A DNA stretch of 64,000 nucleotides from Streptomyces sp. 135 (lineage in GTDB: Bacteria; Actinomycetota; Actinomycetes; Streptomycetales; Streptomycetaceae): the NCBI RefSeq assembly GCF_020026305.1, contig NZ_CP075691.1, forward strand, positions 4,340,001 to 4,404,000, in the 5' to 3' direction. The notes under the pieces are model-generated. The model searched no databases. It saw nothing but the letters and a program-made list of their open reading frames with translations, and was not told where the DNA came from. Shown one piece after another: positions 5,883 through 38,725 of the stretch (positions are counted from its first letter, which is position 1; each line of letters starts with the position of its first letter). A program made the position numbers and the translations under genes.

Positions 5883-5884
5883 GT

Positions 5885-5913
5885 TCGGTCAGCGCGACGT
5901 CAGTTGCCCGTCA
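5885..5913 (+). promoter_or_regulatory. Three 11-bp-spaced GTCA heptamers (SARP-box-like), odd position
   Basis: TCGGTCA (5885-5891), GACGTCA (5896-5902) and CCCGTCA (5907-5913) repeat with exactly 11-bp spacing and share a near-identical stretch with the array upstream of the third NRPS. On the + strand this would direct rightward transcription, antisense into the sbnB 3' end, where no gene is seen. It may be a relic or an antisense promoter. Confidence 0.35.
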
Positions 5914-6942: not shown

Positions 6943-7020
6943 GGGAAGACTGCTCCTGGTCGGGAAGAAGAGAGGGAAAGGTGCACGGCCGGGCCCGTCG
7001 GCCGATGCGGGAGGCGCCCG

Positions 7021-8724
7021 TCAGCCGATGCGGGCCAGACCCTTCGCGTGCTGCCGCGCCCGCCCGCGCGACACCGCCAACGGATCCCAGTCCGGGGCCC
7101 GTTCGGGCAGCTGGGACGCGTCACCGAGCACCGTGCCCGCGTACACCTCGGCGAGCAGGGGACGGCCGAGGATCTGCGACGCGGCGGCGACCCCGCCCGT
7201 CGCGACGCCGCCCACTCCGCTGCCGTAGCGGACGTTCTGCCCGACCACGTACAGCCCTTCGACTCCGGTGCGCACGTCGGGCCGCTGGCCGGCGCCGCCC
7301 CACGTGGCCATGCCGTACGGGGTGCCGCCACTGGCGCGGATGTACCGCTCGTTGGTGAGCGGGGTGGCCGTCTCCACATGCGTGATGCGGTCCCGGAACG
7401 GGCCGAGGACCTTCTCGGCGGTGTCCAGGATCGTCTCGGTCAGCTGCCGCTTGCGCGCCAGGTAGGCGGGGTTGCGGCGGTAGGGCTCGCCGTCGACCGG
7501 GCCGCCCTCGAGGCCCCAGAACGCGTAGCCGGGCGGGCAACCCGTCATGATCTGGAAGTTGCTGTGGCCGGGCGGGCAGACGGCGGGGGCGCCCGCGTCC
7601 TTGATGGAGGCGAAGGAGAACGCCAGCTGCGGCACCGACTCCATGGTGCCGTCACGCTCGTAGCGCTCCTGCACCGCCGCGTGCGCGCCCTCCATGTCGT
7701 CGCTGTCGTGCCACCAGATGTTGGCGTTGGGCAGGCCGGGCAGCTCGGTGTCGAGTGCGACGTACACCGCGACGACGGCGCTGCGCATGACCGCGTCACG
7801 GGTCCGCGCGACCAGGTCGGCGGGGAAGGCCGCCTCACCGCCGCACAGGTCCAGGACGGTGCGGCGGTAGTCGGCGTTGGAGATGACCAGGGGCGCCGAT
7901 ATCCGCTGCCCGTCGGTGAGTTCCACTCCGGTGGCGCGCCCGCCCTCGATGAGGATGCGGCGCACCGCGCACCGGGTGCGCAGTTCGCCGCCGTAGGCTT
8001 CCAGGGCCTCGACCAGGGCGGCCACCAGCGCCTGGCCGCCGCCCTCGGGGTAGTACGCGCCGCGCAGGTAGTGGTCCATGATGTTGACGTGCTCGGCGAA
8101 GCCGATGCCGTCCGGCATGGCGCCGTAGTTGCCCGCCTGCGCCGCCACCAGGGTGCGGCCCTTGGCGGACAGGCCGCAGTGGTCGAGGGCCTGGCCCAGG
8201 GTGCGGCGGCTCCAGCGCATCGTCTGCGGGGACTTGCGGAACAGCTCCACCATGGGCTCGCCCAGCAGACCGGCCCGGCTCGCGGTGGCCACGGCCACGG
8301 CGAGGTCGATGAACCGGTCGATCCGGTCGGCCTCTTCGGGCACGGCCTGCTTGAGGCGGTGACGGTAGGGTTCCCAGCCCGCGGGGACGTCCACGGTGGC
8401 CGTGGGCGTCATGATCCGGTCGAAGCCGCCCTCGTTGTCCATGGGCCTGAAGCGCACCCGGTCACGGACGCCGAGGCCGGACAGGATGGCGGGGATGAGC
8501 CCGTCGGGCCCGCAGTCACCGAGGTAGTGCGTACCGACGTCGAACTCGTACTTGCGGCGCCTGCGGAAGACGTGCGCGTTGCCGCCCGCCACGTCGTGCT
8601 GTTCGAGTACGAGGACGCGGCGGCCGTCGGCGGCCAGGTAGCCGCCGCCGACCAGGCCCCCGATGCCGCTGCCGACGACGATGGCGTCGTACCGGCTCTG
8701 GTCCCCCTGCATTGCCGCTCCCAT
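7021..8724 (-). CDS. CrtI/phytoene-desaturase-like FAD oxidoreductase
   Basis: 567 residues. The N-terminal FAD fold is clear (DAIVVGSGIGGLVGGGYLA, then VLVLEQHDVAGGNA), and the C-terminal flavin motif of the family is seen in GLYVVGQNVRYGSGVGGVATGG. The ATG at 8722-8724 overlaps the ketoreductase stop by one base. CrtI relatives desaturate or isomerise polyenes. From memory, phytoene-desaturase-like proteins also occur with type II ketosynthases in cinnamoyl-peptide clusters, where they help turn a polyene into an aryl group. Here it is embedded in a KS/CLF/KR/ACP operon, so action on an ACP-bound unsaturated chain is the likely role. The exact reaction is inferred. Confidence 0.8.
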   Translation of the reverse strand: MGAAMQGDQSRYDAIVVGSGIGGLVGGGYLAADGRRVLVLEQHDVAGGNAHVFRRRRKYEFDVGTHYLGDCGPDGLIPAILSGLGVRDRVRFRPMDNEGGFDRIMTPTATVDVPAGWEPYRHRLKQAVPEEADRIDRFIDLAVAVATASRAGLLGEPMVELFRKSPQTMRWSRRTLGQALDHCGLSAKGRTLVAAQAGNYGAMPDGIGFAEHVNIMDHYLRGAYYPEGGGQALVAALVEALEAYGGELRTRCAVRRILIEGGRATGVELTDGQRISAPLVISNADYRRTVLDLCGGEAAFPADLVARTRDAVMRSAVVAVYVALDTELPGLPNANIWWHDSDDMEGAHAAVQERYERDGTMESVPQLAFSFASIKDAGAPAVCPPGHSNFQIMTGCPPGYAFWGLEGGPVDGEPYRRNPAYLARKRQLTETILDTAEKVLGPFRDRITHVETATPLTNERYIRASGGTPYGMATWGGAGQRPDVRTGVEGLYVVGQNVRYGSGVGGVATGGVAAASQILGRPLLAEVYAGTVLGDASQLPERAPDWDPLAVSRGRARQHAKGLARIG

Positions 8725-9452
8725 CAGAAGGTGCCGCCGCCGTGGATCTCGAAGACCGACCCCGTGATGTACGTGGCGCGGTCGGAGACCAGGAAGGACA
8801 CCAGGTCGGCCACCTCCTCGGGGCGGCCGAAGCGGCCGAGGGCCACGTTCTTCAGCTGCCGGGCCACCGCCGCCTCCGTCATGTCGCGGACCATGTCGGT
8901 GTCGATGAGGCCCGGCGCGACCACGTTGGCGCGCACACCGCGCGGCCCGCACTCCTTGGCGAGGGACTTGGTGAAGCCGATGATCCCCGCCTTGGACGCG
9001 GCGTAGTTGGCCTGGCCCGTGTTGCCGTAGATACCGGACACGGACGACAGGTTGACGATGGTGCCCGCCTTGCGCTTGCTCATCGAGAACGCGGCGGCGC
9101 GGCACACGTGGTAGACGCCGTCCAGGTTGGTGCGCAGAACCTGGTTCCAGTCGTCCTCGGGCATGAGGAGGACGGGCCGGTCCTTGGTGATGCCCGCCGA
9201 GGTGACGACGGCGTCGACGGGGCCGAGCTCGCGCTCGGTCCGCGTGTACCAGTCGCGTACGTCGGCGGCGTCCGAGACGTCGCAGCGCGTCGCCGCCACG
9301 CGGGTGCCGTACTCGGCCGCCTCCTTGGTGAGCTGCTCGGCGGCGTCCTCGTTGGAGCGGTAGCAGAAGGCGACGTCGTACCCGTCCTGGGCCAGGCGCA
9401 GCACGATCGCCTTGCCGATGCCCCGGGACCCGCCGCTGACCAGCGCGATCAC
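8724..9452 (-). CDS. 3-ketoacyl-ACP reductase (FabG-like, SDR)
   Basis: 242 residues of the classical short-chain dehydrogenase family. The cofactor loop is SGGSRGIG (residues 7-14), the catalytic Ser is in NLSSVSG and YAASK supplies Tyr and Lys. The GTG start at 9450-9452 overlaps the stop of the chain-length-factor gene (GTGA). It should reduce the 3-keto group after each KS extension on the cluster ACP, using NADPH. No enoyl reductase is present, which suggests that double bonds are kept in the chain. Confidence 0.9.
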   Translation of the reverse strand: MIALVSGGSRGIGKAIVLRLAQDGYDVAFCYRSNEDAAEQLTKEAAEYGTRVAATRCDVSDAADVRDWYTRTERELGPVDAVVTSAGITKDRPVLLMPEDDWNQVLRTNLDGVYHVCRAAAFSMSKRKAGTIVNLSSVSGIYGNTGQANYAASKAGIIGFTKSLAKECGPRGVRANVVAPGLIDTDMVRDMTEAAVARQLKNVALGRFGRPEEVADLVSFLVSDRATYITGSVFEIHGGGTF

Positions 9453-10573
9453 GCGTTCTCCCCCATCAGTCGCAGTACGGCACAGGCCACGGCACCGTCC
9501 TGGTCGACCGCGGACACCAGGGCGATTCGCCCCTGGGCGTCGTGGTCGGACCCGGCGATGGCGAGCACCGCCCCGATCTGGAGGGACGCCGACGCGGCGC
9601 CGGTGTCACCGAGCAGCTCCATGGACGGCACGCGGGACAGCGCGGCGGCCGGCAGCAGCGCGGCCAGCGCCTCGTGCTCGGCCCGTCCGGCGGCGGAGGG
9701 CGCCGCGCACGGAACGGCGGCCCACACCTCGTCGGCGCCGACTCCGGCGCGGTCCAGGGCGCGGCGGGCGCACGCGGTGACGGCCGCGTACGGGTCGTCG
9801 TCGATGTCGACGCGGGTCTCGACGCTCAGCACCGCGGCCAGCGGCGGGCGCTCGGCGGTGCCCGCGTGCTCGACGAGGAGGAGGCCGCAGCCCTCGCCGA
9901 GCAGCGGCGCGGGCTCGCCCGGCGCGGCGGTGTGCTCGTACCAGGCGTGGGCGGCGGAGAACTCCTCGGCGGAGCCCACCAGGTACTTCGTCGCGCGGCC
10001 CTGGCTCATCAGGCGCCGCGCGTAGTTGAGGGCGAGCAGTCCACTGGCGCGGCCGCCCGCGACCGTGGTGTTGGGGCCCTTGAGGCCGTGCCGGATCGCG
10101 GTGGCGCCGGCGGCGTGGTTGAGGCTGCCGAAGGGGATGCGGCCCGCGTCCACGTGGAAGGGGCGTGCCTGGGTGTACGACTGGCGCAGGAAGTTCGTGA
10201 CGTTCTCCAGGCTGCCCATGGTGATGCCGAGGACGACCCCGGTGCTGTCGTCGGTCCGCACCGTCCTGTTGCCCTCGCCGTCCAGGAGCAGCCCGTCGGA
10301 GGCGACCAGGGCCAGGGCGGTGAGCCGGTCCATTTTGGCCGTGCCCTTCTTGCCGAGCAGGCCCTGGATGTCGAAGCCCGGCACCATGCACGCGTCGGGC
10401 GACGGCAGCGGGCCCAGCTCCGGGTCCGCCCGCACGGCGGTCTTCGCGCCGCCGCGCAGACCCGCGGCGAACTCCTCGCGGCCGAGGCCGTACGGCGAGA
10501 CGGCCGACCATCCGGTGATGACGGGTGTCTGGGGCGGCAACGGTGCCGCCGGGGTGGCTGCTGCGGTACTCAT
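9449..10573 (-). CDS. Chain-length-factor-like ketosynthase partner (KS-beta), no active-site Cys
   Basis: 374 residues with the thiolase fold of type II ketosynthases. All catalytic residues are replaced. At the position of the KS-alpha nucleophile (TTACAAG) this protein has Arg175 (AGGRASG); the HGTGT motif reads CAAPSA and GHSMGA reads GDTGAA. This is the usual sign of a CLF, which pairs with KS-alpha and shapes the tunnel, although CLFs commonly have Gln rather than Arg there. The ATG at 10571-10573 overlaps the KS-alpha stop (ATGA), implying coupled translation and a heterodimer. It should have no condensing activity alone. Confidence 0.85.
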   Translation of the reverse strand: MSTAAATPAAPLPPQTPVITGWSAVSPYGLGREEFAAGLRGGAKTAVRADPELGPLPSPDACMVPGFDIQGLLGKKGTAKMDRLTALALVASDGLLLDGEGNRTVRTDDSTGVVLGITMGSLENVTNFLRQSYTQARPFHVDAGRIPFGSLNHAAGATAIRHGLKGPNTTVAGGRASGLLALNYARRLMSQGRATKYLVGSAEEFSAAHAWYEHTAAPGEPAPLLGEGCGLLLVEHAGTAERPPLAAVLSVETRVDIDDDPYAAVTACARRALDRAGVGADEVWAAVPCAAPSAAGRAEHEALAALLPAAALSRVPSMELLGDTGAASASLQIGAVLAIAGSDHDAQGRIALVSAVDQDGAVACAVLRLMGENA

Positions 10574-11844
10574 GGGCGGACTCGCTCCCCGTACGTGCCG
10601 AGAATCAGGATGGCGTTGTTGCCGGCGAAGGCGCTGGAGTTGTTCTGCACGATCCGTACGTCCGCCTCGACGGCCGCGTTGGGTACGACGTCGAGCGGGC
10701 ACTCCGGGTCGGTTTCCCGGTGGTTGATGGTGGGCGGGATGAACCCGTGCTCGATGGCGAGGCCGCAGGCGATCGCGCCGAGTGCGCTGGCCGCCCCCAT
10801 GGAGTGGCCGAGCATCGACTTCACGGCGACGGTGCGCGGCGGTGCGTCGCCGTACACGTCGAGGATGGCGGCCGACTCCGTGCGGTCGTTGGCCTTGGTG
10901 CCGGTGCCGTGCGCGGAGATGAAGTCGATCTCCTCCTGCTTGACCCCGGCGTCGTCGAGGGCGAGGCGGATGCCGCGCGCGATGCCGTCGCGGTCCGGCG
11001 CGGTGGGGTGGTTGGCGTCGCAGCTGAGGCCGTACCCGAGGACCTCGGCGTAGATGTGCGCGCCCCGCGCGAGCGCCGACTCCAGGCTCTCCAGGACGAG
11101 GATGCCCGCGCCCTCACCGGTGAGGATGCCCTGCCGGTCCTTGTCGAAGGGCCGCACCACGTCCGGGGTGAGCGCGCCGAACCTCTTGAAGAGGGCGAAC
11201 GCCTTGCGGCACACGGCGTCGGCGCCGCCGCACAGCGCGATGTCGACGTCACCGGAGCGGATGGAGTCCAGTCCGTAGCCGATGGAGTAGTTGCCCGCCG
11301 CGCAGGCCGTGGTGATCGTCGTGGGCTCCACGTTCGGCATGCGCAGCTCGCGGGCGATCACGGTGGTCAGGCGGCCCGCGTTGATGCGGCGGGACAGGAC
11401 CGGGTCCATCGCCTCGGGGTCGCCGGCGGCCAGCTCCTGCTCCAGGAGTACGGCGATGTCGTGCGACTCGCCGTCGGTCGTGCCGACGCTGATGACCGCC
11501 TGCCGCTCGCCCAGGTCGTCCTCGGTGAGCCCCGCGTCCTCCACGGCCATCCGCGCGGCGGCGACCGCGAACTGCCCGGCGCGGCCCATGTCGTCGAGCG
11601 GTACGTTGCGGATCCAGCGCTCCGGTTCGAAGTCGGGGACCTCGCAGGCGACGTTCTGGCCGAATCCCTCGGTGTCGAAGCGGGTGATCGGCCGTGCGCC
11701 GGAGCGGCCGGTGCGCAGCCCCTGCGCGTACTCCTCGAGGCCCGTGCCGATGCTGGAGATCGCCCCCATGCCGGTGAGGACGACCCTTCGGCGGTCCGTC
11801 GGCGCGGGGGCCTCGGACGCAGCCGGTGACTGTGCGGTGGACAT
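10570..11844 (-). CDS. Type II ketosynthase alpha
   Basis: 424 residues, complete KAS II/KS-alpha. The catalytic triad is Cys181 (TTACAAGNYS), His312 (SAHGTGTKAND) and His347 (LGHSMGA). It elongates an acyl chain on the cluster ACP by decarboxylative Claisen condensation with malonyl-ACP, with the adjacent Cys-less partner. The ATG at 11842-11844 has AAGGAG close upstream. It follows the ACP gene by 54 bp in the operon led by the SARP-type repeats at 12221. Together with one KR and no enoyl reductase it resembles highly reducing type II systems that make polyenes. Chain length cannot be read from the sequence. Confidence 0.92.
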   Translation of the reverse strand: MSTAQSPAASEAPAPTDRRRVVLTGMGAISSIGTGLEEYAQGLRTGRSGARPITRFDTEGFGQNVACEVPDFEPERWIRNVPLDDMGRAGQFAVAAARMAVEDAGLTEDDLGERQAVISVGTTDGESHDIAVLLEQELAAGDPEAMDPVLSRRINAGRLTTVIARELRMPNVEPTTITTACAAGNYSIGYGLDSIRSGDVDIALCGGADAVCRKAFALFKRFGALTPDVVRPFDKDRQGILTGEGAGILVLESLESALARGAHIYAEVLGYGLSCDANHPTAPDRDGIARGIRLALDDAGVKQEEIDFISAHGTGTKANDRTESAAILDVYGDAPPRTVAVKSMLGHSMGAASALGAIACGLAIEHGFIPPTINHRETDPECPLDVVPNAAVEADVRIVQNNSSAFAGNNAILILGTYGERVRP

Positions 11845-14450: not shown

Positions 14451-21892
<7,442 letters not shown>

Positions 21893-21896
<4 letters not shown>

Positions 21897-24800
21897 GACA
21901 AATCCTCACTCAGCTCGAGTTCGAGGTCGGCGAGTTCCTCGTCGGAGAGGGCGATCAGGCTGCTCTCCGGGTCCACGGCGGGCACGGGCGGCTCGTCCCG
22001 CTCCCGCTCGGCGGCGGTGTGGGCGAGGGCGGCGACGGTCTTGTGGGTGAAGATGTCGCGGGTGGTGAGGGGGAGTCCGGCCTTGCGGGCGCGGCTGACG
22101 ACCTGGATGGAGCGGATGCTGTCGCCGCCGAGGGCGAAGAAGTCCTCGTCGATGCCGACGGCTGACTGGCCGAGGACCTCGCCGAAGATGCCGCACAGGA
22201 CCCTCTCCGGCTCGTCGCGCGGCCCGCGCCGCTCCGCCTCGTCCATGTGTGCGGGCTTGGGCAGGGCCTTGCGGTCGAGCTTGCCGTTGGGGGTGAGCGG
22301 CATGGCGTCAAGGACCAGCCAGGAGGCGGGGATCATGTACGCGGGCAGCAGCCCGGACAGGTGCTGCTGGACGCGTTCGGGGTCGGGGGCCGTTCCCACG
22401 CCGGAGAGGTAGCCGACGAGCCGCGGGTTGCCGGAGGCGTCGGGCACTACGGCGACGGCGGCGTCCGCGACGCCGTCGAGCCCTCGGACGACGGCCTCGA
22501 TCTCGCCCAGTTCCACGCGGCGTCCGCGGATTTTGACTTGGTGGTCGCGGCGTTCGATGAATTCGAGTTGTTCGTCGGGGCGTTGGATGACGCGGTCGCC
22601 GGTGCGGTACATGCGGGTGCCGGGTCCGGCGAAGGGGTCGGCCATGAAGGTGGTGGCGGTGCGGGCGGGGTCGTGGAGGTAGCCGCGGCCGACGCCGGCT
22701 CCTCCGACGTAGAGCTCGCCGGGGGTTCCGGTGGGGACGGGCTGGAGTTCGTCGCTGAGGACGTACAGGCGGGTGTTGCGGACCGGGGCGCCGATGGGGA
22801 CGCGTCCGTTGAGGGTGTCGGTTGCCGTGATGACGGCGTGGGTGACGTCGTCGGAGCACTCGGTGGGTCCGTAGGCGTTCATGAGGGGGATGTGCGGGTA
22901 GCGGGTGTGCCACCGTGCGCACAGGTCGGCGGGGAGGGCCTCGCCGGTGACCATGAGCCAGCGCAGGTCGGGGAGTTGGGGGGCGTCGTCTTGTATGTCC
23001 CAGGCGTCCAGGGCGGCTCGCAGGAGTGAGGGCACTACTTCGAGGACGGTGATCTGTTCGGTGTGGGCCATGGTGAACAGGGCGGCGGGGTCGGCGGCCA
23101 TCTCGGTGCCGGAGACCCGTACCTGGCCGCCTACGAGGAGGGGTGCCAGCATCTGCCATACGGACACGTCGAAGGTCAGGGGCGCGTTCTGCACCACGGT
23201 CTCGCCTGCTGCCAGGTCCAGGTCGCCGACCTTGGCCCACAGGTGGTTGACCATGCCCGAGCGCTGCACCATCGCACCCTTGGGACGGCCCGTCGAACCC
23301 GATGTGAACATCACATACGCCAGATCCAGACCGTCACCCACGGCCGGCGGCACCGCCCGCGCGGTCAGACCGTCCTCCAGAGCGATGACGGTGACGGGAG
23401 CGGCCGCGTCCTGTACGGCGGTCAGCTCGCGGGCGCTTACCTCGTACCCGGCACCGACGAGCAGGAAGCGGGCCCCGCTGTCCGCCAGCAGAGCGGCGTT
23501 GCGGGCCACCGGAGCCGCCGGGTCCAGCGGCAGGTAGGCACCGCCCGCACCCAGGACACCCAGCACACCCGCCACGAACGGCACACCCGGATCGGCCAGC
23601 ATCGCCACCACCGAACCCGTGGCCACACCGCGCCCGGTGAGTGACTGGGACAGGCCGCCGGCCGACTCCACCAGCTCCCGGTAGGTGACGGATCCTGCGT
23701 TGTCCGTGACGGCGGTCCCGTCGGGGATCCGGTCGGCGACGGAGCGTACGCGCTCGACGACGCCGAGGCTCTCCTCGGTGATCGACGGGTCCCAGGTGCC
23801 CAGCAGGCCGCCGAGCTCACCGGGCGCACCGGCTCTGCCGAGGATCGCGGGAGCCGTCACGTCGATCCGGGCGATGGGCAGCTCGGGGTGTTCGGCCACC
23901 GTGCGCAGCAGGTGCTCGAACATCACGGCGATCCGCTCGACGTCCGCACGCGTGAACAGGTCCGGCGCGTAGTCCAGGCGCAGGTTCAGGGTGTCGCCGG
24001 GGAAGACGGCCATGCTCAGCGGGTGGTGACGTGCGTCCCTGGCCTCGGCGCTCACCACGCGCGGGCCCCCGTCGGAGGTACCGGTGTCCAGACCACCCGC
24101 GTCCAGCGGGAAGTTCTCGAAGAGCACCACCGTGTCGAAGACCTCGCCGGAGAGCCCGGCGGCCTTGTGGATCTCGACGAGGCCGAGGTGCTCGTGCGGG
24201 AGCAGCGCCGTCTGCTGGTCCTGGAGGGCGCGCAGCAGCTCCGTCAGGGTGGCCCCGGGGTGCAGGCGGGTGCGGACCGGGACCGTGGTGAGGAACATGC
24301 CGATCATCGACTCGACGTCCGGCACCTCGGCGGGGCGGCCTGAGGTGACGGCGCCGAAGACGACGTCCTGGCGTCCGGTGAGCCGTCCGAGGAGCAGTGC
24401 CCAGCAGCCCTGGACGACGGAGTTGAGGGTGAGCCCCTGGCCGCGGGCCCAGCCGGCGAGCGCCGCCGTCAGCTCCGGGGACACCTCGGCCCGTACGGAG
24501 TCGGGCAGCACCGGCGCGCGGTCGGGGTCGGCCGGGACGAGCAGCGTGGGCTCGGTCACGTCGCCGAGCACCGCGCTCCAGGCCCGCCGGGCCTCGTCGC
24601 GGTCCTGCGCCGTGAGCCAGGCCAGGTAGGAGCGGTACGGGGCGGGGTCCGGCAGTGCAGTGACGTCCGCGCCGGGCGCGCAGAGCGCGAACAGCTCCTT
24701 CACGAGGAGCGGCATCGACCAGCCGTCGACCAGGATGTGGTGGCTGGTCCAGATGAAGCGGTGCCGTCCCTCGCCGTGGGTGACGAGCGTGAAGCGCAGC

Positions 24801-27800
24801 AGCGGCGGGGCCGCCAGGTCGAAGCGCCGGGTGCGCTCGGATTCGGTGATCCGGTCGAGCTCGGCGGCGCGCTCGGCCTCGGGGAGGTGGCGCAGGTCGG
24901 CCTCGCGCCAGGGCAGCTCGGCGCTCTGCGGGACGATCTGCACCGGAGTGCCGCCGGGGCGGGCCCGGAAGCCGGCGCGCAGGTTCGGGTGCCGGTCGAG
25001 GAGGGCCTGCCCGGCGGCGCGCAGCACGGCGGGGTCGAGGCCGCCCGCCACCTCGGCGACGATCTGCAGGGTGTAGACGTCCACGGCCTCCTGGCCGTCC
25101 TGCCCGGCCCGGCCGACCTGGCCGTCCTGGCCGTTCCTGCCGTCCTCGGCGCCGGCGGCGTCGTACTCCGCGTGGAACAGCATGCCCTGTTGCAGGGGCG
25201 TGAGCGGCAGGATGTCGGCCAGCGCCGTGCCGGAGCGCGCGAGGTCGGCCTCGTACTCCTCGATCTCCTCCTGGGCCACCTCCACCAGCGGCAGGTCGGA
25301 GGGGGTGCGGCCACCCGCGTCCGGGTGGGCGGCGTGCCGGGACAGCAGCTCCAGGGCACGGAACCAGGTCTGCGCGATGTCGTGCGCGTCCTCGTCCGCC
25401 ACGGCCTGTCCGGCCCAGGCCCAGTTCGCGATCAGGTGCGGGCCGTCGTGGCGGTCCTCGGTCGCGGGCGTGACGTCGATGAGGTGCGGCAGCGGCATGC
25501 CGGGGTGCGCCCCGGTGCCGACGACGCCGTCACCGCCGGCGGGCTCCCACAGCCCGGCCTCGCGGGCGTCGAAGCGGCCCATGTAGTTGAAGCCGATCTG
25601 CGGCCGGTGGTAACCGGACAGGGTGCGGGCGGCGTGGGGGTTGAGGTAGCGCAGCAGGCCGTGGCCGACGCCTCGGTCGGGCAGGGCGCGCAGTTGTTCC
25701 TTGATCCGCTTCAGGGCACCGGACAGCGCCGGGCCGCCCGCCCACACCTCGTCCCAGTCCAGGGGACCGGGGTCGAGACGCACCGGGAAGGCGCTGGTGA
25801 ACCAGCCGACGGTGCGCGACAGGTCCAGGCCGTCGACGAGCTGTTCGCGGCCGTGGCCCTCCAGTTCGATCAGGGTCTGTGCGTAGTGGGCGTGGCCGTG
25901 CCGCCTGCGCCAGTCCGCGACGGCGAGGGCGAGTCCGGTCAGGAGGACGTCGTTGACCTCCGCGTGGAAGGCCGCGGGGACGTCGGTGAGCAGCGGGCCG
26001 GTGAGGTCGGGGCCCAGTTCGAGGCGCAGGCCGCGCCGGGTGCCGTAGATGTCCTGGGCGGGATCGAGCCTGCGGGTGCCGACCAGCGGGTCGGGACCCT
26101 CCAGGATGTCCTGCCACAGGGCGAGTTCGCCGCCGCGCACCTGGGTGCGGGCCTGCTCGATGAGCAGCCGGGACCAGCTGCGGTACGAGGTGCCCACGGG
26201 GTCGAGGGCCGGGGTGCGGCCCTCGGCGAGCGCCTGGCAGGCGGCCTCCAGGTCGGGCAGCAGGATGCGCCAGGACACGCCGTCGACGACGAGGTGGTGG
26301 GCGCAGAGCACCAGCCAGCCGGTGCCGGCGCCGGGGCCCGCGTCGAGCAGTACGGCCTGGATCATGACGGCGGCGGCGGGGTCGAGGCGTGCGCGGGCCG
26401 CCGCGGCCTGCCGCTCGGCGAGGCCGAGGATGTCCTTGGCGTCCTTGGCGTCCTTGGCGTCCTTGGCATCCTCCGTGCCCGCGCCCGTCGTGCTGTCCGT
26501 GCTGCTGTCCGTGCTGTCTGTGGTGTCCGTACTGTCTGTGGTGTCTGTGGTGTCTGCGGGCCTGTTGATGCCGTACGCGCCGCCCGCGTCCACGGTCGCG
26601 ACCAGGCGTACGCCGTTCAGCGCGCCGGGCGCGAGGACCTCCGTCTGCCAGAGCCCGGGGGACGGCTCGGTGGCCCGGGTGCGCAGGGCGTCGTGGTGGT
26701 CGACGACGGCGTGCAGGGCGGCGTCGAGGTGGTCGGCGTCGAGGCCGGCCGGGACGCGTACGACGACGTGCTGGCTGTACTTGACGACGGGACCGGTCAG
26801 ACTCCGGGTGTCCTCGTGCAACTGCCCCATGATCGGCGTGAGTTCGTACACGCCGACACCTGTGCCGTCGTCACCCGTGCCGATTCCGCTCACGGAGTCC
26901 GTGTCGACCCCGCCCGCGGTGCGGGCGAGGGCGGCGACGGTCTTGTGGGTGAAGATGTCGCGGGTGGTGAGGGAGAGTCCGGCCTTGCGGGCGCGGCTGA
27001 CGACCTGGATGGAGCGGATGCTGTCGCCGCCGAGGGCGAAGAAGTCCTCGTCGATGCCGACGGTTGACTGGCCGAGGACCTCGCCGAAGATGCCGCACAG
27101 GATCCTCTCGCGCTCGTCGCGCGGACCGCGTGTCGTGTCCTGCTCGACGGCCGCGGGCTTGGGCAGGGCCTTGCGGTCGAGCTTGCCGTTGGGGGTGAGC
27201 GGCATGGCGTCAAGGACCAGCCAGGAGGCGGGGATCATGTACGCGGGCAGCAGCTGGGCGAGCTCGGCGCGGACCCGGGCGGCGTCCACGTCGGGACCGG
27301 TCAGGTAACCGAAGAGGCGCGGGTTGCCGGAGGCGTCGGGCAGGACGGCGACCGCGGCGTCGACCACGGTGTCCAGTCCCCTGATGACGGCTTCGATCTC
27401 ACCGGTCTCCACGCGGCGTCCGCGGATTTTGACTTGGTGGTCGCGGCGTTCGATGAATTCGAGTTGTTCGTCGGGGCGTTGGATGACGCGGTCGCCGGTG
27501 CGGTACATGCGGGTGCCGGGTCCGGCGAAGGGGTCGGCCATGAAGGTGGTGGCGGTGCGGGCGGGGTCGTGGAGGTAGCCGCGGCCGACGCCGGCTCCTC
27601 CGACGTAGAGCTCGCCGGGGGTTCCGGTGGGGACGGGCTGGAGTTCGTCGCTGAGGACGTACAGGCGGGTGTTGCGGACCGGGGCGCCGATGGGGACGCG
27701 TCCGTTGAGGGTGTCGGTTGCCGTGATGACGGCGTGGGTGACGTCGTCGGAGCACTCGGTGGGTCCGTAGGCGTTCATGAGGGGGATGTGCGGGTAGCGG

Positions 27801-30082
27801 GTGTGCCACCGTGCGCACAGGTCGGCGGGGAGGGCCTCGCCGGTGACCATGAGCCAGCGCAGGTCGGGGAGTTGGGGGGCGTCGTCTTGTATGTCCCAGG
27901 CGTCCAGGGCGGCTCGCAGGAGTGAGGGCACTACTTCGAGGACGGTGATCTGTTCGGTGTGGGCCATGGTGAACAGGGCGGCGGGGTCGGCGGCCATCTC
28001 GGTGCCGGAGACCCGTACCTGGCCGCCTACGAGGAGGGGTGCCAGCATCTGCCATACGGACACGTCGAAGGTCAGGGGCGCGTTCTGCACCACGGTCTCG
28101 CCTGCTGCCAGGTCCAGGTCGCCGACCTTGGCCCACAGGTGGTTGACCATGCCCGAGCGCTGCACCATCGCACCCTTGGGACGGCCCGTCGAACCCGATG
28201 TGAACATCACATACGCCAGATCCAACCCACTTCCCACCGCCGGGAGTTCCGTGGCGCAGTCGGCGTCGGCGGGCTCGGCGAGCGCGAGCGCGGTCAGTTC
28301 CGTCCGGTCTCCGTCAGCAGCCGTGAGCGCGGACGTGAGCGCGGCCGCCGCCTCCCGGTAGGCGCTGCCCGTGAGCAGGAAGCGGGCGCCGCTGTCCTTC
28401 AGCAGAGCGGCGTTGCGGGCCACCGGAGCCGCCGGGTCCAGCGGCAGGTAGGCACCGCCCGCACCCAGGACACCCAGCACACCCGCCACGAACGGCACAC
28501 CCGGATCGGCCAGCATCGCCACCACCGAACCCGTGGCGATCCGTGCGGTGCCCAGCCGGGAGGCGACGCCCGCGGCCCGTGTCAGCAGCTCGCGGTAGGT
28601 GACGCTCCGCGTGCCGTCGGCCACGGCCACGGCGTCGGGGGTGCGCGCCGCCACGGCCCGCACCCGTTCGACGAGTCCCTCGTACGCCTCCCGCTCGGCG
28701 GCCGGGTCCCAGGCGCCGAGCACACCGAGGGGCTCACCGGGCGCACCGAGGCCGGTCTGCCCGAGGGGCCGGTCGGCGGGCATCGCGGCGAGGTCGGCCA
28801 AGAAGGCCACGAAGCGGGCGAGATGGGCGGCCAGCTCCGCCGAGCCGTACAGCTCGGGGTTGCCGTCGAGGTGGATCTCCATCGTGCCGTCGGCCGTGTT
28901 GAGGACGGTCATGATCAGGTCGTTGACGATGCCGGTGGAGAGGTTGACGACCGTGCCCCGGCAGGTGTCGCCGAAGCCGAGCTGCGGGTCCTGGTTGAGG
29001 ACGTTGATGAACGGCCCGAAAGCACGCCGGTCGTCGATGTGCAGGCCGATGTCCCGGCGGATGCGGTCGCCCCGGTAGCGCTGGTGCTTGAGGGCGCCCG
29101 ACACCTCCACCCAGGCCTGGCGCAGGAGCTGCGAGCGGGTCATCTCCGGCCGCACGCGCACGGCGAGCGGGAGGTAGTTGGCGAGCATGCCGGGGATCTC
29201 ACGGCTGACGGCGCCGACGCGTCCGGTCACCGGCAGGGTGAGCAGCGGTTCGGCGACGCCGGTCATGCGCTGCGCGTAGGCGGCCATCGCGGCGACCATC
29301 AGGACGGGCATGGTGACCTTGCCGTCCGCGGCCATGGCGCGCAGCGCGTCCGTGGCTTCGGCGTCGAGGCGGCAGGTGTGCCGCAGGGCACCGCGCCCCC
29401 GGGCGGGCTCCTGCGCGGAGAAGGAGACGAGCTCGGGCGCCCGCCCGTCTTGGCCACCGGCGGTGAGGCGCCCGGTCCAGTAGGCGCGGTCCCGGTCGAC
29501 CTTCGGCGAGTCCAGGTAGTCGCGCTCGGCGTCCAGGAGGCGGTGGAAGGGCGGGATGGCATCGCCGTCGAGTTCCGCCTCGGTACCGCCGGCGGCGAGC
29601 CGGGTGTAGAGGGCGGCGAGCTTCGGGTACAGCAGCGCGCGGCTGAAGCCGTCGGCGAGGATGTGGTGCATGCAGAGGTAGAGCAGGTGGTGCTCGGGGC
29701 CCAGGGTGATGAGCGCGCCGCGGAACAGCGGGAAGTCGGTGACCCTCATGGGCTCGGCGTGATCGGCGCGCATCCACCGTTCGGCGGCGGCGAGCGGATC
29801 GTCCTCGCCGCTGAAGTCCATGGGTTTCAGGGGGAGTTGGGCGAGCGGCCGGACGATCTGGCCCGGGGCCCCGGCCTCCTCGACGAACTGCACGCGCAGT
29901 CCCTCGGCCTCGTGACCGAGGCGCTGGAGCGCCCGTCCGAGCAGCTCGGTGTCGAGCGGGCCGCGCAGGTCGATGTAGTCGGCCATGTTGTAGGCGAGCG
30001 GTCCGGTGGTGAACTGCTCGTCGAACCAGATCTCGGCCTGCGCCGCGGTGAGCGGGAGGACGGCGCCTCGCTTGGTCGTCAT
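21893..30082 (-). CDS. NRPS, C-A-T-E-C-A-T (two identical acidic A-domain pockets)
   Basis: 2729 residues from the ATG at 30080-30082; starts at 30100 and 30148 are also in frame. C1 (about 8-430, HHILADG near 137) resembles starter C domains and probably joins the fatty/polyketide acyl group. A1 is about 485-990; T1 has LGGDSI near 1015; E is about 1070-1530 with [16 protein letters not shown] and [10 protein letters not shown]2 (about 1628 on) starts [13 protein letters not shown], the DCL type expected after an E domain. A2 is about 2125-2600 and T2 near 2650. There is no TE. Both A pockets read D-V-W-E-M-T-A-D-D, with acidic residues at 278, 330 and 331, fitting a cationic side chain. SbnA/SbnB in the cluster make Dap the best guess, the first residue becoming D. 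The A-domain cores are identical DNA. Confidence 0.95.
22512..23328 (-). repeat. 817-bp identical repeat, copy 1 (A2 core of the C-A-T-E-C-A-T NRPS)
   Basis: This stretch matches 27408-28224 base for base at an offset of 4896. It encodes the A domain from [12 protein letters not shown] to the [13 protein letters not shown] region, so it includes every specificity residue up to A8. Flanking A-domain sequence diverges sharply on both sides, so the match reflects recent gene conversion or duplication, not whole-module copying. Confidence 0.9.
26432..26467 (-). repeat. Four 9-bp tandem repeats inside the E domain gene
   Basis: GTCCTTGGC is repeated four times in phase and encodes a run of Asp-Ala-Lys units. 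Just upstream in the protein (26485-26570) is a second low-complexity stretch rich in Thr-Asp-Ser. Both sit in a loop of the epimerization domain between the N-terminal strand region and HHLVVDG. Confidence 0.9.
27408..28224 (-). repeat. 817-bp identical repeat, copy 2 (A1 core)
   Basis: Partner of 22512-23328; all lines compared by eye are the same. It fixes the same substrate pocket in module 1 as in module 2. A shorter identical patch also exists around the A10 motif (22251-22340 and 27153-27242, offset 4902), separated from this one by diverged sequence. Confidence 0.9.
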
Positions 30083-30148
30083 TTCTTTCTTCCCCGTCAT
30101 TCTCAGCCTCAGCTCTGCCCCGACTCCGGACCCAACCGTCCCTGCCAC

Positions 30149-31249
30149 TCAGCCGGAAACCGTCTCGAATCCGGCGTCGAATTCCGTGGCGAGGTCGCCT
30201 TCCGCGAGGGCGCCTTCCGCGAGGGTGCCTTCCATGAGGCCGCCCCCCGCGATCCCGCCCTCCGTGATTCCGTCGCTCGTGAGGATTTCGGAACCGAGCG
30301 AATTCCGTACCCAGTCGTCGTGGTAGACGGTGTCCATATAGCGCTCGCCCAGGTCCGGCGAAATGGTCACGGCGGTCACCTCGTCGCGAACGCCTCCGGC
30401 TCCGTCCCCGTACTGCTCGGAGAGCCAGCGCAGCGAGCCGGCCACGACGGTGCCCGTGGAGCCACCGAAGAGGAATCCGTGCCGCATCAGCTCCCGGCAG
30501 GCGCGCACGGTGTCCGCCTCCGCGACGTGGACCGTGTCGTCGACCAGGGACTCGTCGAGGAGGGCGGGCCGCACGCTGGTGCCGAGGCCCGGGATGTGCC
30601 GGGTGGCCGCGGGGCCGCCGAAGGTGACGGAGCCGACGCTGTCGACGGCGACGACCCGCACCGAGGGCCGCCGCTCACGGAAGTAGCGGGCACAGCCCAT
30701 CAGGGTGCCCGTGGTGCCCGCGCCGATGAACAGCACGTTCAGGTCGGGGAACTGCCGGGCGATGGCCGGCGCGGTGGTCCGGTAGTGGGCCAGCGCGTTC
30801 CCGGGGCTCAGGTACTGGTTGAGCCAGACCTTCTTCTCGTCGGCGGCCAGCAGCGCCTTGACGTGGCGGATCCGCGCGCCGAGGAAGCCCTCGGTCTCGT
30901 GCGGCTCGGTGATGACGTGGACCTCGGCGCCGTAGGACTCCATGGTGCGCCGGGTCACGGCGTTGCAGCGGGAGTCGGTCACGCACAGGAACTTGAAGCC
31001 CTTGGCGGCGGCGAGCACGCTCAGGGCGACTCCCATGTTCCCCGATGAGGACTCCACCAGGGTCGAGCCGGCGCCGAGCACACCGGCGGCCTCCGCCTGC
31101 GCGACCATCTCGCGAGCGGCCTTCAGCTTGATGGATCCGGCGAAGTTGAATCCCTCGACCTTCAGAAAGAGACGGCGTCCGAAGAACGGCTGCAGATTCA
31201 CGAAGAGGTCGCTGACATCGAATTCATGCGACGCGGATATAACCGGCAC
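30149..31249 (-). CDS. sbnA-like: SbnA-like PLP synthase of 2,3-diaminopropionate synthesis
   Basis: 366 residues of the cysteine-synthase fold. The PLP Lys is Lys41 in NFAGSIKLKAA, the substrate loop is SSSGNMG and the phosphate loop is GAGTTGTLMG. SbnA joins O-phospho-L-serine and L-glutamate to N-(1-amino-1-carboxy-2-ethyl)-glutamate, which SbnB then cleaves to Dap. The VSDLF...FFGRRLFLKVEGFNFAGSIK N-terminus fits SbnA better than cysteine synthase. The GTG start at 31247-31249 follows AGGAG by 6 bp. It leads the central operon just before the NRPS with two acidic pockets, which supports Dap as its substrate. A C-terminal Glu/Gly/Ala-rich tail (about residues 335-366) looks dispensable. 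Confidence 0.88.
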   Translation of the reverse strand: MPVISASHEFDVSDLFVNLQPFFGRRLFLKVEGFNFAGSIKLKAAREMVAQAEAAGVLGAGSTLVESSSGNMGVALSVLAAAKGFKFLCVTDSRCNAVTRRTMESYGAEVHVITEPHETEGFLGARIRHVKALLAADEKKVWLNQYLSPGNALAHYRTTAPAIARQFPDLNVLFIGAGTTGTLMGCARYFRERRPSVRVVAVDSVGSVTFGGPAATRHIPGLGTSVRPALLDESLVDDTVHVAEADTVRACRELMRHGFLFGGSTGTVVAGSLRWLSEQYGDGAGGVRDEVTAVTISPDLGERYMDTVYHDDWVRNSLGSEILTSDGITEGGIAGGGLMEGTLAEGALAEGDLATEFDAGFETVSG

Positions 31250-31337: not shown

Positions 31338-31375
31338 CCCGGCATCGCAGGCCGGAGGCGGTGCCGGGCGCGTTT

Positions 31376-31415
31376 CGTCAGCGGGACGTCAGCCCCTCGT
31401 CAGTTGCCGGTCAGT
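31376..31415 (+). promoter_or_regulatory. SARP-box array for the divergent NRPS
   Basis: Four cores CGTCA/CGTCA/CGTCA/GGTCA (31376, 31387, 31398, 31409) repeat at exactly 11-bp spacing, pointing rightward, and end 53 bp before the NRPS start at 31469. The shared intergenic region can thus fire both large NRPS transcripts from one regulator. Confidence 0.78.
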
Positions 31416-31468
31416 GCCATCGGAAATTGTCGAATTCCGATATCTGGCTCTTCCGTGAGGAGCACGGC

Positions 31469-34400
31469 TTGAATCGCCCGTCCGCCATCAGTGAAGTACT
31501 TCCGCTCTCGCCTTTGCAACAGGGTCTGCTCTTTCTTTCCGAGTACCACCGCGAGGAAACGGACGTCTACACCATTCAGCTGGTGGTGGATTTCGAGGAG
31601 ATGACCGGCTCCGACGTCACCGCCCTGCGCGGTGCGGCCGGCGCGCTTTTGGAACGGCACCCCAATCTGAAGGCCTGCTTCCGGCACCGGAAGAGTGGTG
31701 AGGCGATCCAGGTGATCCCCGCCTCGGTGGAGCTTCCGTGGCGCGAGGTGGACCTGGGCGCAGGCGACCGGACGCCCACGGCGGCGGAGCTCGACCTCGT
31801 GGCGGAGGAGGACCGGCTGCGCCGCTTCGACCTGTCCCGCCCGCCCCTGCACCGCTTCACGCTGATCAGGGCGGGTGGCGGGCGCTGCCGCCTGGTGTGG
31901 ACGGTGCACCACATCCTGGTCGACGGGTGGTCGATGGCGGAGCTGATCCGCGAACTCGCGGAACTGGCGAAGGAGTCCGCGTCGGAGCCGCCCGCCGTCT
32001 CCACCGCCACCGCCGCCCCCGTGCCCGCCCCCGCCGGACGGGACCTGCCCGCCACCGCCCCCTACCGCGCCCACCTGTCCTGGCTCGACGCGCAGGACAA
32101 GGAGGCCGCCAGGCAGGCCTGGTCGGACGCGCTCGCGGGCGTGTCGGAACCGACGCGGCTCGTCCCCGCGGAGGCCGGGAGCGGCGCCCGGGCAAAGGAC
32201 CGCGGGGCACTGCCCGAGCAGGTCCCCGTCGACCTCACGCCCGAGGCCTCCGCCGCGCTCGTGCGGTTCGCCCGCTCCCGCGGCCTGACCGTCAACGCCG
32301 TGGTGCAGGGCTGCTGGGCCCTGCTCCTGTCCAGGCTGACCGGCCAGGACACCGTGGTGTTCGGCGCCGTGACATCGGGCAGGCCGGCGCAGATCCCCGA
32401 CGTCGAGCGCATGGTGGGCCTGTTCGCCAACACGCTTCCCGTCGCCGTCCACGTGGACCCGTCCCGCACACCGGCCGACCTCTTCGCCGCCGTGCAGCGG
32501 GCCCAGACGGACCTCCTCCCGCACGAGCACCTGACGCTGGCGGAGGTGCAGCAGCTCACCCCCGTACGCGGCGAACTCTTCGACACGGCCCTGATGTTCC
32601 AGAACTACCCGATAGGACAGCTGCCGCTCACCACGGACGCGAGCCCTCGGGTGACCGGCGTCGACATCCGCTCCGCCACGCACTACCCCGTGACCCTCAC
32701 CGTCTTTCCCGGCACGCCCCTCGGGCTGACCGTCAACCACATCCCCTCCCGCCTCCCGCACGCCGCCGCCCACCGCGTCGGGCGCCGCTTCGCGCGCCTC
32801 CTGGAGGACGCCGTCACCCGGCCCGACGTGCCGTGCGGACGCCTCGACGTCCTGGACCGGGCCGAGCGGGCGGACGTCATCGACGTACGCAACGACACCG
32901 CCGCGGACCTCCCCGGGCACTGGCTGGCACCGCTCCTGGAGGAGTGGGCCGTCCGGAGCCCCGACGCCCCGGCGGTCACCTGCGGCGACGAGCGGCTCAG
33001 CCACCGGGAGCTGCACGCGCGGGCCGACCGGCTGGCCCACGCCCTGTGCGCGGCGGGCGCGGGACCGGAACGGGTGGTGGCCATCGCGCTCGACCGGTCC
33101 TGCGACCTGGTCGTCGCCGCCCTGGCCGTACTCAAGTCCGGCGCGGCCTACCTCCCGCTCGACCCCGACTACCCCGTCGACCGCCTCCACTACATGCTGG
33201 CGGACGCCGCGCCCGTGGTGACGCTCACCCACCGCCGCGTCCGGGCCCTCCTCGCCGAGGAGGACGGGGCGAGCGCGGGCGAGCTGTGGGTCCTCGACGA
33301 ACCGGACGCCTCCGCCGGTCCGCCGGCCGCCGGAGACCTCGGCCTGCCGGGGCCCTTCCCTTCCCCGCGCGCCGACCACCCGGCCTACGTCATCTACACC
33401 TCGGGCTCGACCGGCCGTCCCAAGGGCGTCGTCGTGCCGCACGGCGCCCTCACCAACCTGGTCCACGACATGTGCGGGCGCTCCGGCGTCACCGCGGTCG
33501 ACCGGTTCCTCGCGGTCACGACGTTCGGCTTCGACATCGCCAACCTGGAGCTGTTCGTGCCGCTCGCGGCCGGTGCCGAGCTGCTCGTCGCCGACCGGGA
33601 GACCGTGCGCGACCCGGCCGCCCTGGCCACCGCCGTCACGTCGCTCGGTGCCACCCTGATGCAGGCCACACCCAGCCTCTGGCAGGCCCTCGCCGCCGAC
33701 CACGGGCCCCGGCTGGCCGGGGTCCGTGCCCTGGTGGGCGGCGAGGCGCTGCCCGGGCCGCTCGCCCGCGCACTCACCGCGCATTGCGCGTCCGTCACCA
33801 ATGTGTACGGCCCGACGGAGACGACGATCTGGTCGACGGCCGCGGCCCTGACAGCCCCCGTGCCCACCGCGCCGCCCACCCCGCGTACGACGGACGACGC
33901 GCCGTCCGAGCCGGGCCCGCCCCCCATCGGCGGCCCCCTCGCCAACACCCGCGTGTACGTCCTCGACAGCGCCCTGCGCCCCGTCCCCGACGGCACCTTC
34001 GGCGAGCTGTACATCGCCGGGTCGGGGCTCGCCCGCGGATACCTGGGCCGTCCGGGCCTGACGGCGGAGCGTTTCATCGCCGACCCGTTCGGGCCGCCCG
34101 GGGCGCGCATGTACCGCACCGGGGACATCGTGCGCTGGGACCCCGCCGGCACGGCCCTCGAGTACGCGGGCCGCAGCGACCACCAGGTCAAGATCCGCGG
34201 CTACCGGATCGAGCTCGGCGAGATCGAGTCCGTGCTCGGCGCGCAGCCCGGTGTCCAGCAGGCCGTCGTCACGGCCCGCACCGACCACGGCGGGGAGACC
34301 CGCCTGGTCGCCTATGTCGTACCGGCAGGGACCGACCACGACCGGCTGCGGGAGCGCGCGTCCGTGGTGCTGCCCAAGCACATGGTCCCTGCCGTGTACG

Positions 34401-37400
34401 TTCCCCTGGACGCCCTGCCCCTGACCCCGAACGGCAAGGTCGACCGGAAGGCGCTGCCCGCGCCCCCCGGCGAGCGCGCCGGGGCGGGCAGGGCGCCGGT
34501 GGGGGCACAGGAGGAACTGCTGTGCGCGGTCTTCGCGGAGGTGCTCGGCCTGGAGCGGATCGGCGCCGACGACGACTTCTTCGCCCTCGGCGGTCACTCG
34601 CTGTCCGCGATCCGGGTCGCCAACCGGCTGCGCTCGGCCCTCGGCGTGGACGTCCCCGTGCGCGCCCTGTTCGACGCCCGCACCGCGCAGGCCCTGGCCC
34701 GCACGCTGCCCGAGGCCTCCGGCGCCCCCGCGGGGCCGCCCACCGCGTCCGGCACCCGCCGCCCGCCCCTGCGCGCCCTCCCGCACCGGCCGACCGCCGT
34801 CCCCCTCTCGTACGCACAGGAACGCCTGTGGTTCCTGAACCGGATGGACGGCGCGTCCGGCACGTACAACATCCCCCTGGTCGTCCGCCTCCGCGGCCCG
34901 CTCGACCCCGCGGCGATGACGGAGGCGGTACGTGATGTGGTCGCCCGGCACGAGAGCCTGCGCACCGTCTTCGCGGAGGCCGACGGACTCCCCGCCCAGC
35001 TGCTCCTCTCCCGCGAGGAGGCCGACGAGGCGGGCGCCCGCCTGGAGCACGTGCACCTGCCCGGCGAATCCGCTCTCGCCGCGGTCCTCGCCGCCGAGGC
35101 CGCCCACCCCTTCGACCTGTCGTCCCAGGCACCCGTGCGCGCCCGGCTCCTCACCCTGGGCGCCGACTCCCACGTCCTCGCCCTGACGGTGCACCACATC
35201 GCCGCCGACGGCTGGTCCCTCGGGCCGCTCGCCCGCGATCTGACGACCGCCTACCGGGCCCGGCTCACGGGCGCGGCACCGCGGTGGGAGCCGCTGCCCG
35301 TGCAGTACGCGGACCACGCCCTGTGGCAGCGGGAGCTGCTCGGCGCCAAGAGCGACCCGGACAGCCTGCTCGCGAAGGAACTCGCGCACTGGCGCGAGGC
35401 GCTGGCCGGCCTCCCCGAGGAGCTTGACCTGCCCACCGACTTCCCGCGCCCCGCGCGGGCCGGACACCGCGGCAGAAGCGTCGCGTGCACGGTCCCCGCC
35501 ACAACCCACGCCCGCCTGGCGGATCTCGCGCGGCGCACCACCGCGAGTCTCTTCATGACCGTCCACGCCGGGCTCGCCGCCCTGCTGACCAGGCTGGGCG
35601 CGGGCACCGACATCCCACTGGGCAGCCCCGTGGCGGGGCGCACCGACGAGGCGGTCCGCGATCTGGTCGGCTTCTTCGTCAACACGCTCGTCCTGCGCGC
35701 CGACACCAGCGGCGACCCCACGTTCACCCACCTGCTCTCCCGGGTGCGGGAGAGCGACCTGACGGCGTACGCCCACGCCGAGCTGCCCTTCGAGCACCTC
35801 GTCGAGGAGCTCAACCCGGCCCGCTCACTGGCCCGGCACCCCCTCTTCCAGGTCATGCTGGCCTTCCAGAACAGCGCGGACCCGCTGCCCGAACTGCCGG
35901 GCCTCACGGCCGAGGTCGAGCCGGTCGGCACGGTCACGGCGAAGTTCGACCTCTCCTTCCAGGTGACGGAGCGGACGGCCGCGGACGGCACCCCCGACGG
36001 CCTGGACATCCTCCTTGAGTACAGCGAGGACCTGTTCACCGAGGCGACGGCGGCTCGTATCGCGCAGGCCCTCGCCACCCTGCTCGACGCCGCGGCGCAC
36101 ACCCCCGACGCCCCGCTCAGCTCGCTGGCCCTGCTCACCCCCGAGGAGCGCCACACGCTCCTCACGGTGTGGAACGGTCACCCCCACCCGCAGCCGCCGG
36201 CCACCCTCGTCTCCCTCTTCGAGGCGAACGCGGCCCGCACCCCGGACCAGCCGGCACTGATCGCACCCGATCCGGGCCACGCCGGGCCCGCCCACCTCAC
36301 CTACGCCGAACTCGACACCCGGGCCAACCAGCTCGCCCACCTCCTCCTGCGGCGCGGTGTCGGACCCGGTGACCTCGTCGCCCTGGCCCTGCCACGCTCC
36401 GCCCGGCTGGTGGTCGCGCTGCTCGCCGTCCTCAAGACCGGCGCGGCCTATCTGCCGGTCGACCCGGACTACCCGGCCGAGCGCATCGCGTACATGCTCG
36501 GGGACGCGGCACCCGCCGAGGTCCTGACCGACGCGGCGGCCGCCGAGGGCCTTCCCGCGCTGCCCGCCGGAGCCGCCTGCCTCGTCCTCGACGACCCGGA
36601 CACCCTTGCCCGGCTCGCCGAGGGGCCCGGCACCGGCCCCACCGACGCCGACCGCACCCGCCCGCTGACGCCGCGGGATCGCGCGTACGTCATCTACACC
36701 TCGGGCTCGACGGGGCGCCCCAAGGGCGTCGTCGTGCCCCACGCGGGTGCGGCCAACCTGGCCGCCAACCAGCGGGCACGCCTCGGCACCGGGCCCGGCA
36801 CGCGGGTCCTTCAGTTCGCCTCGTTCAGCTTCGACGCCAGCGTGTGGGAGCTGTGCGCCTCGCTCTTCTCGGGCGGCACACTCGTCCTCGCCACCGCCGA
36901 CAGCAGACTCTCCCCGGAGATCCTGGTCGACCTGCTGATGGAGCACGGCATCAACCACGTGGTCCTGCCGCCCACCGTGGTCGCCTCGTTCCCGGAGGCC
37001 GCCGAGTTCCCCGATGATCTGTGCCTGCTCGTCGGCGGCGAGGCGTGTCCCCCCGCCGTGGCCGAGCGTCTCGCCCGGCTCGGCACCCCGCTGCGCAACG
37101 CCTACGGGCCGACCGAGACCTCGGTCTGCGCCACCTGGAGCGAGCCGCTGGCCACGGGCGGCAAGCCGCCGATCGGGCGCCCCCTGGACAACGTCCGGGT
37201 GTACGTCCTCGACCCGGCCCTCTCACCGGCACCCGTCGGTGTCACCGGTGAGCTCTACGTCGCCGGTGACGGCCTCGCCCACGGATATCTGGGCCGCCCC
37301 GCCACCACGGCCGACCGCTTCGTCGCGGACCCGTTCGGGCCGCCCGGAGCGCGCATGTACCGCACCGGTGACCTCGTGCGCTGGCGGCCCGACGGCACCC

Positions 37401-38725
37401 TCGACTTCCTCGGCCGCGCCGACCACCAGGTCAAGCTCCGCGGCTTCCGCATCGAGCCGGGCGAGATCGAGGCCACCCTCACCCGCCACCCGGTGGTCGA
37501 CCAGGCCGCCGTCACCCTCATGCCGTCACGGACCGGCGCCCCGCAGCTGACCGGGTACGTCGTGCCCGTCTCCGGCGTCGCCGCCGTCGACGTGCCCGTC
37601 CTGCGCGCGTACGTCGCCGAGTCCCTGCCCGCGCACATGGTGCCCGCGGCCCTGGTGACCCTGCCCGCGCTGCCCCTGACGGCGAACGGCAAGCTCGACA
37701 CCCGTGCCCTGCCCGACCCCACGGCGGCCGGCGCCACCGAGGCGGTCGCCCCCGGGCGCCCGCCGCGGACGGCCGCCGAGGAGATCCTGGCCGGCGTCTT
37801 CTGCGAGCTGCTCGGCCTGGAAGAGGTGGACGCCGACGGCGACTTCTTCGCCCTGGGCGGCGACAGCCTGCGGTCGGTACAGATCGTCAGCCGCGCCGCG
37901 AAGGCGGGACTCACGCTCTCGCTGGCCGACGTCTTCGCCCACAAGACGGTGGCGGCCCTCGCCGCGGCCGCCCGCACCACCGCCCCCTCGGCGCCCACCG
38001 AGGCCGTCCCGCTCGCCCCACTCCTGCCCATCCGGCCCACCGGCACCGCCGCCCCCCTCTTCTGTGTCCACGGCGGGGTCGGTTTCGGGTTGCCGTACGC
38101 GGAACTCGCCCCGCACATCGACGCGGACCGGCCGCTGTACGCCCTCCAGTCCGACGGCATCGCGGCGGACGCGGACGGCTGGGACCGGCCGAAGGACATC
38201 CCGGCGCTCGCGGCGACGTACGTCGAACGCGTCAGGCAGGTGCAGCCGCACGGGCCCTACCACCTGCTGGGCTGGTCGTTCGGGGGCCTGGTCGCGCACG
38301 AGATGGCCGTCCGGCTCCAGGCGGCGGGCGAGGAGGTCGCCTTCCTGGCGGCACTGGACGTCTATCCCGTGGCGCCCGACGACCCGAACCCCTCCGACGA
38401 GGAGATCCGCGCCGCGTTCCTCGAACACCACGCCACGGGCGCCGACATCGGCGCGGAGGACCTGCGCCGTCTCATGGCCGTCATGCGCCACCACACCGAC
38501 ATCGCCCGCGAGTTCAGCCCCGGGCGGTTCGCCGGACCGCTGACACTCTTCGTCGCCGCCGGTGAACAGCAGGCCCCGGACGCCGCACTCCCGCAGCGCT
38601 GGCTCCCGCACCTGGAGGGGCCGCTCACCGTGCACGAAGTGCCCTGCGGCCACGAGGAGATGCTCACCCCGCGAGCCGCCCGGGACATCGGCGCCCTGGT
38701 CGACGCGGCTCTGGGACATCGCTGA
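31469..38725 (+). CDS. NRPS, C-A-T-C-A-T-TE (Gly, then hydrophobic/aromatic residue)
   Basis: 2418 residues. The start is taken as TTG at 31469, with GAGGAG 6 bp upstream; the frame stays open further left but has no better site. C1 begins [12 protein letters not shown] with HHILVDG near 148. A1 (about 505-1000) reads D-I-L-Q-L-G-V-I-W, the Gly code. T1 has LGGHSL near 1040. C2 begins [10 protein letters not shown] near 1113 with HHIAADG. A2 (about 1590-2075) reads D-A-W-V-L-G-A-V-C, a hydrophobic pocket close to Phe types. T2 has LGGDSL near 2129 and the thioesterase has GWSFGG near 2268. It is the only cluster gene on the + strand. Its N-terminus closely resembles that of the other TE-bearing NRPS, so both may accept the chain from the same upstream subunit. 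Confidence 0.95.

Follow-up and report, generated by a model that had tools for sequence, protein, structure and literature searches.

The cores of the two A domains in a two-module NRPS gene of Streptomyces sp. 135 have very probably been kept alike by recurrent gene conversion, that is, by concerted evolution, and the last event in this strain appears recent enough to have left 817 bp identical. The two copies lie about 4.9 kb apart in the same gene. The window, by which the whole analysed stretch of 64,000 nucleotides is meant, was taken from contig NZ_CP075691.1, and all positions given below for this strain are window positions unless genome positions are named.

An 817-bp tract shared by two A domains

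The host gene was delimited by open reading frame and Pfam analysis as follows.

21893 to 30148, minus strand: two-module NRPS gene, 2751 amino acids, domain order C-A-T-E-C-A-T

Pfam matches within this gene comprised three Condensation-type stretches, two AMP-binding domains and two PP-binding domains. The middle Condensation-type stretch was assigned to E because it carries the [10 protein letters not shown] motif. Pairwise alignment gave a single 817-bp run with zero mismatches between the two modules. This confirmed the initial annotation, which had reported identical A3-A8 DNA in modules 1 and 2 over an interval (22512-28224) that corresponds to the outer ends of the two copies. The copies were located by alignment, a genome DNA search and codon arithmetic.

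27408 to 28224, minus strand: 817-bp identical tract, A-domain core of module 1 (A3 into A8), residues 642-914
22512 to 23328, minus strand: 817-bp identical tract, A-domain core of module 2 (A3 into A8), residues 2274-2546

In module 1 the tract starts with the codon for residue 642 ([15 protein letters not shown]3) and ends inside the codon of residue 914 (IRGRRVE, A8); the labels A3 and A8 at the tract ends are the usual A-domain motif names. A DNA search of the whole genome (8,832,922 bases, 43 matches) found copies at 100% identity in these two places only. The third-best match was 72% identical over 271 bases, which excludes chance as the source of the identity. Outside the tract the A domains are far less alike, with the exception of shorter identical patches. 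The earlier statement that the flanks differ thus held for the surrounding domains, which are much less similar overall, and failed for identical runs of 138, 102, 89 and 51 bp within them, each matched by a partner some 4.9 kb distant.

23486 to 23623, minus strand: 138-bp identical run, N-terminal part of A, module 2 (partner 28400-28537; repeat family D5, 98% over 165 nt)
28400 to 28537, minus strand: 138-bp identical run, N-terminal part of A, module 1 (partner 23486-23623)
22251 to 22352, minus strand: 102-bp identical run, end of A (A10 region), module 2 (partner 27153-27254)
22021 to 22161, minus strand: near-identical T-domain patch, module 2, made of identical runs at 22073-22161 (89 bp) and 22021-22071 (51 bp) (partner 26923-27063)

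Relationships of cores and flanks across ten genomes

A scan of genome contigs for relatives yielded 23 loci. At E <= 1e-190, 4 genomes in a genus sample of 392 and 9 in a family sample of 394 had the domain; the samples overlap, and the genome of the window is counted in them. Ten genomes with a complete gene were compared: the window genome (WIN), Kitasatospora sp. SUK 42 (L009), Embleya hyalina (L010), Streptomyces sp. MJM8645 (L011), S. spinosus (L012), Streptomyces sp. uw30 (L025), L040, L041, L042 and, as the outgroup to these nine, S. rimosus (L021). Sixteen loci with incomplete genes (L013-L020, L022-L024, L026-L029 and L031), the distant L030 (35%) and the partial L043 were left out. 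G063, G486, G420, G556 and G591 were dropped as apparent repeats of loci already in the set, judged from equal ORF length, and G500 was dropped with a contig identical to that of L013. Both modules were present in the same order in all ten genomes.

Core identity between the two modules of a genome was mostly 85-100% per 20-codon window in all ten genomes, including the single-contig L040 and the two-contig L041. The 20-codon window just before A3 (column 160) showed 36-48% identity in eight of the ten, the exceptions being L010 (81%) and L042 (77%). The longest identical run between modules was 817 bp in the window genome, 454 bp in L041, 338 bp in L011 and 311 bp in L012, and both runs and tract edges vary from genome to genome. 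At fourfold sites of the core, modules 1 and 2 differed at 0 of 175 positions in the window genome; L041 had 2 differences in 178, and the seven remaining ingroup genomes had 13 to 37 in 170-176. The mean core difference at such sites was 0.123 within the nine ingroup genomes versus 0.492 between genomes for the same module; for the N-flank the values were 0.373 within and 0.409 between genomes. The paralogous segments are therefore closer within a genome than to their orthologues, silent sites included.

Phylogenetic analysis gave the same reversal. Same-genome cores were sisters in nine of ten genomes in the core tree, and a single clade of the nine A1 cores was rejected (AU p 6e-5). The cores of L009 were not sisters in the ten-genome tree (66/65) and were weakly sisters in a seven-genome tree (52/54). 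Together with the runs and edges that differ per genome, the sisterhood of cores in nine of ten genomes indicates recurrence in several lineages. In the N-flank tree the nine A1 sequences fell on one side of a branch with support 90/99, so that the N-flanks outside the tract keep an older module-wise history, though the A2 N-flanks form a grade and not a clade. Sisterhood of same-genome flanks was rejected in five of the six genomes tested; for L010 it was not (p 0.395). When flank and variable segment were combined, the nine A1 sequences did not form one clade in the best tree, and the clade was not rejected (p 0.42). Such weakening would be expected if L010 and L042 had converted the variable segment too, as their 77-81% identity there suggests. 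The comparison of both modules in related clusters, proposed as a check in the initial annotation, thus showed N-flanks grouping by module and cores grouping by genome, and with no fourfold difference in the core of the window genome it supports the recent gene conversion proposed there.

Alternative explanations

An assembly or polishing artefact, by which copies that differ in the organism were made identical in the consensus, is improbable. Near-identical A cores do disrupt assemblies at this gene: 15 of the 16 truncated relatives (L013-L020, L022-L024, L026, L027, L029 and L031) end at a contig end in or beside an A domain, and the gene is for this reason often fragmented in draft genomes. 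The exception is L028 (4521-6044), in which the gene match ends at residue 520 and the contig continues for 10 kb; the gene may be truncated or rearranged there, or the contig misassembled. Four strains each have one contig ending in module 1 and another ending in module 2, and the homologous residue at which both end is identical (679, 775, 683 and 637, after subtraction of an offset of 1632 residues). The two ends share their last 99, 95 and 58 bases in three of these strains and only 3 in L024/L018. Matching contig ends fit repeat collapse during assembly, which would imply identical tracts in those strains too. The genome of the window, however, is one 8.83 Mb contig with distinct flanks at each copy, and the pattern recurs in the nine other genomes, L040 and L041 among them, where the copies retain some differences particular to each genome.

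A recent tandem duplication of the whole module, with flanks diverging afterwards, is less credible still. The domain order common to both modules and the several further near-identical patches would agree with it, but both modules occur in the same order in every genome compared, and in nine of them the N-flanks cluster module-wise, which places the duplication before these genomes split. Contradicted by the flank and core trees, a recent duplication was rejected. Strong purifying selection on the protein, which the invariant substrate pocket might suggest, can be dismissed with near certainty, since silent sites are identical within the window genome and 49% different between genomes with the same pocket, and the fourfold-site data thereby rule out protein conservation as the cause.

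Under gene conversion, the favoured explanation, the core of one module was recently copied over that of the other in this strain, and relatives have very probably undergone such events more than once in this gene. Homologous recombination presumably carries out the conversion, and the indel-rich stretch between A2 and A3 may often halt the tract. Because no differences were observed at 175 fourfold sites, silent divergence since the last event in the window strain is probably below about 2% by the rule of three, which is small against the 49% seen between genomes.

Substrate pocket and possible direction of conversion

The pocket code was read via motif anchors and the GrsA numbering of the pocket positions. 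All 18 ingroup domains carried the inferred pocket residues DVWEMTADD, both L021 domains carried DIWEVTADD, and within each of the ten genomes the two modules had the same pocket. Two further claims of the initial annotation were not supported by this comparison. Conversion was said to have fixed one substrate pocket in both modules, but the pocket was already common to them in every genome; and the tract was called a natural example of sub-domain exchange, but no specificity changed, because the inferred pockets are the same. A-subdomain exchange with a change of specificity would entail a recipient pocket that departs from its orthologues or ancestor; the two modules have the same pocket in each of the ten genomes, and a change of specificity was rejected. 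What happened was homogenisation between modules whose pockets already agreed, probably with the building block unchanged.

Both modules are predicted, as a probable assignment from the pocket code and the biosynthesis genes in the cluster, to load 2,3-diaminopropionate, in which case the product would be unaltered by the conversion. The relevant genes are as follows.

30149 to 31249, minus strand: SbnA-type 2,3-diaminopropionate biosynthesis enzyme, adjoining the NRPS gene (TIGR03945, 375.3 bits, cut-off 349.95)
5911 to 6942, minus strand: ornithine cyclodeaminase-family protein (PF02423, 109.8 bits, cut-off 24)

The latter, from the family to which SbnB belongs, is a probable SbnB-type partner of SbnA.

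The A8 motif, just outside the tract of the window genome, bears on direction. Module 1 has ETGEIE in all nine ingroup genomes; module 2 has ELGEIE in three (the window genome, L040 and L025) and ETGEIE in the other six; both copies of the outgroup L021 have ELGEIE. This is most simply read as an overwriting of module 2 by module 1 in the six ETGEIE genomes or their ancestors. A stronger version, in which conversion is directional and kept by selection, with module 1 as the usual donor repeatedly overwriting module 2 and the two modules thereby held to one unusual amino acid, is speculative and rather unlikely.

Surrounding gene cluster

The converted gene is flanked by two NRPS genes, each with its own thioesterase, identified by ORF and Pfam analysis.

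14451 to 21896, minus strand: downstream NRPS gene, two modules, terminal thioesterase
31361 to 38725, plus strand: divergent NRPS gene, two modules, own terminal thioesterase

Either flanking NRPS may receive the product of the converted gene, which could make the assembly line branch towards two products. A-domain matches occur with the same order and strands across the NRPS gene set in L009-L012. Among the repeat families within the window, no comparable tract was found between the A-domain pairs of the two neighbouring NRPS genes. Genes for a MaoC-type dehydratase, an FAD-dependent oxidoreductase, a ketosynthase pair, a carrier protein and a KS III-type protein lie at 5341-11844, 46125-46409 and 49256-50212. 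The SbnA-type enzyme, taken together with the ketosynthase pair, the dehydratase, the carrier protein and the KS III-type protein, suggests a diaminopropionate-containing peptide that carries a type II PKS-derived acyl chain. A literature search at screening level tied no product name to the cluster.

Other shared tracts in the genome

A shorter tract is common to the C domain of module 2 and the C domain that comes first in the downstream NRPS gene.

24255 to 24554, minus strand: C domain of module 2 (family D3, 85% over 300 nt; two 25-codon windows at 99% and 97%)
20950 to 21249, minus strand: partner C-domain tract in the downstream NRPS gene (family D3; window comparison)

Five of the ten genomes were included in this comparison. 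Compared between module 2 and the first module of the next gene, the two 25-codon windows were 99 and 97% alike here and 83-97% alike in the four other genomes, and their two neighbouring windows reached 44-79%. The window's genome matched the others at these C-domain positions at 84-96%. Homogenisation of the C domain is clear in the window genome and L009; the L012 values (83 and 92%) are not above the between-genome level.

As a control for exact repeats, 11 chosen NRPS/PKS stretches (about 207 kb) were searched along with the window. The 817-bp tract was the longest exact repeat in these stretches, followed by 410, 404 and 353 bp. Other megasynthase stretches at genome positions 7695000-7764500 and 7960000-7976000 (L051-L054) contain many exact repeats of 150-410 bp. 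Given the C-domain tract and the other exact repeats, the process is common in this genome, and the 817-bp tract is its longest example in the sampled stretches.

Discussion

In the hormaomycin and microcystin synthetases, A-subdomain exchange has been described as changing specificity, with tracts that span the substrate-binding core. The present tract likewise covers that core, but the inferred pocket here is the same in both modules. An intragenomic A-domain recombination tract is described for wollamide biosynthesis (Booth et al. 2022, PMC9205934); it reaches from the vicinity of A2 to A5/A6 and leaves the outer portions of the domain in place. Recombination within an A domain is common to both cases, but the donor A domain in that account was of another predicted specificity, whereas here the pocket was already common to both modules. 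Concerted evolution in PKS and NRPS genes is discussed by Medema et al. 2014 (PMC4256081), whose examples include cluster-specific branching of A domains by internal recombination in daptomycin, A54145 and CDA and, likewise, the KS and AT domains of the rapamycin family. The likeness to those examples is that A domains are alike within a cluster through internal recombination; here the unit is sub-domain in size (A3 into A8), its edges are mapped, and two modules are followed across ten genomes. The 817-bp tract is one more case of this published process, and a well-resolved one, but not a new kind of event.

The tract is no evidence of a change in product, and assemblies of related strains tend to lose precisely the A-core regions, which calls for caution in their use. 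The ten genomes provide a natural series of conversion tracts of varied ages and edges in one NRPS gene, which should help to learn what A-domain breakpoints are tolerated in nature.
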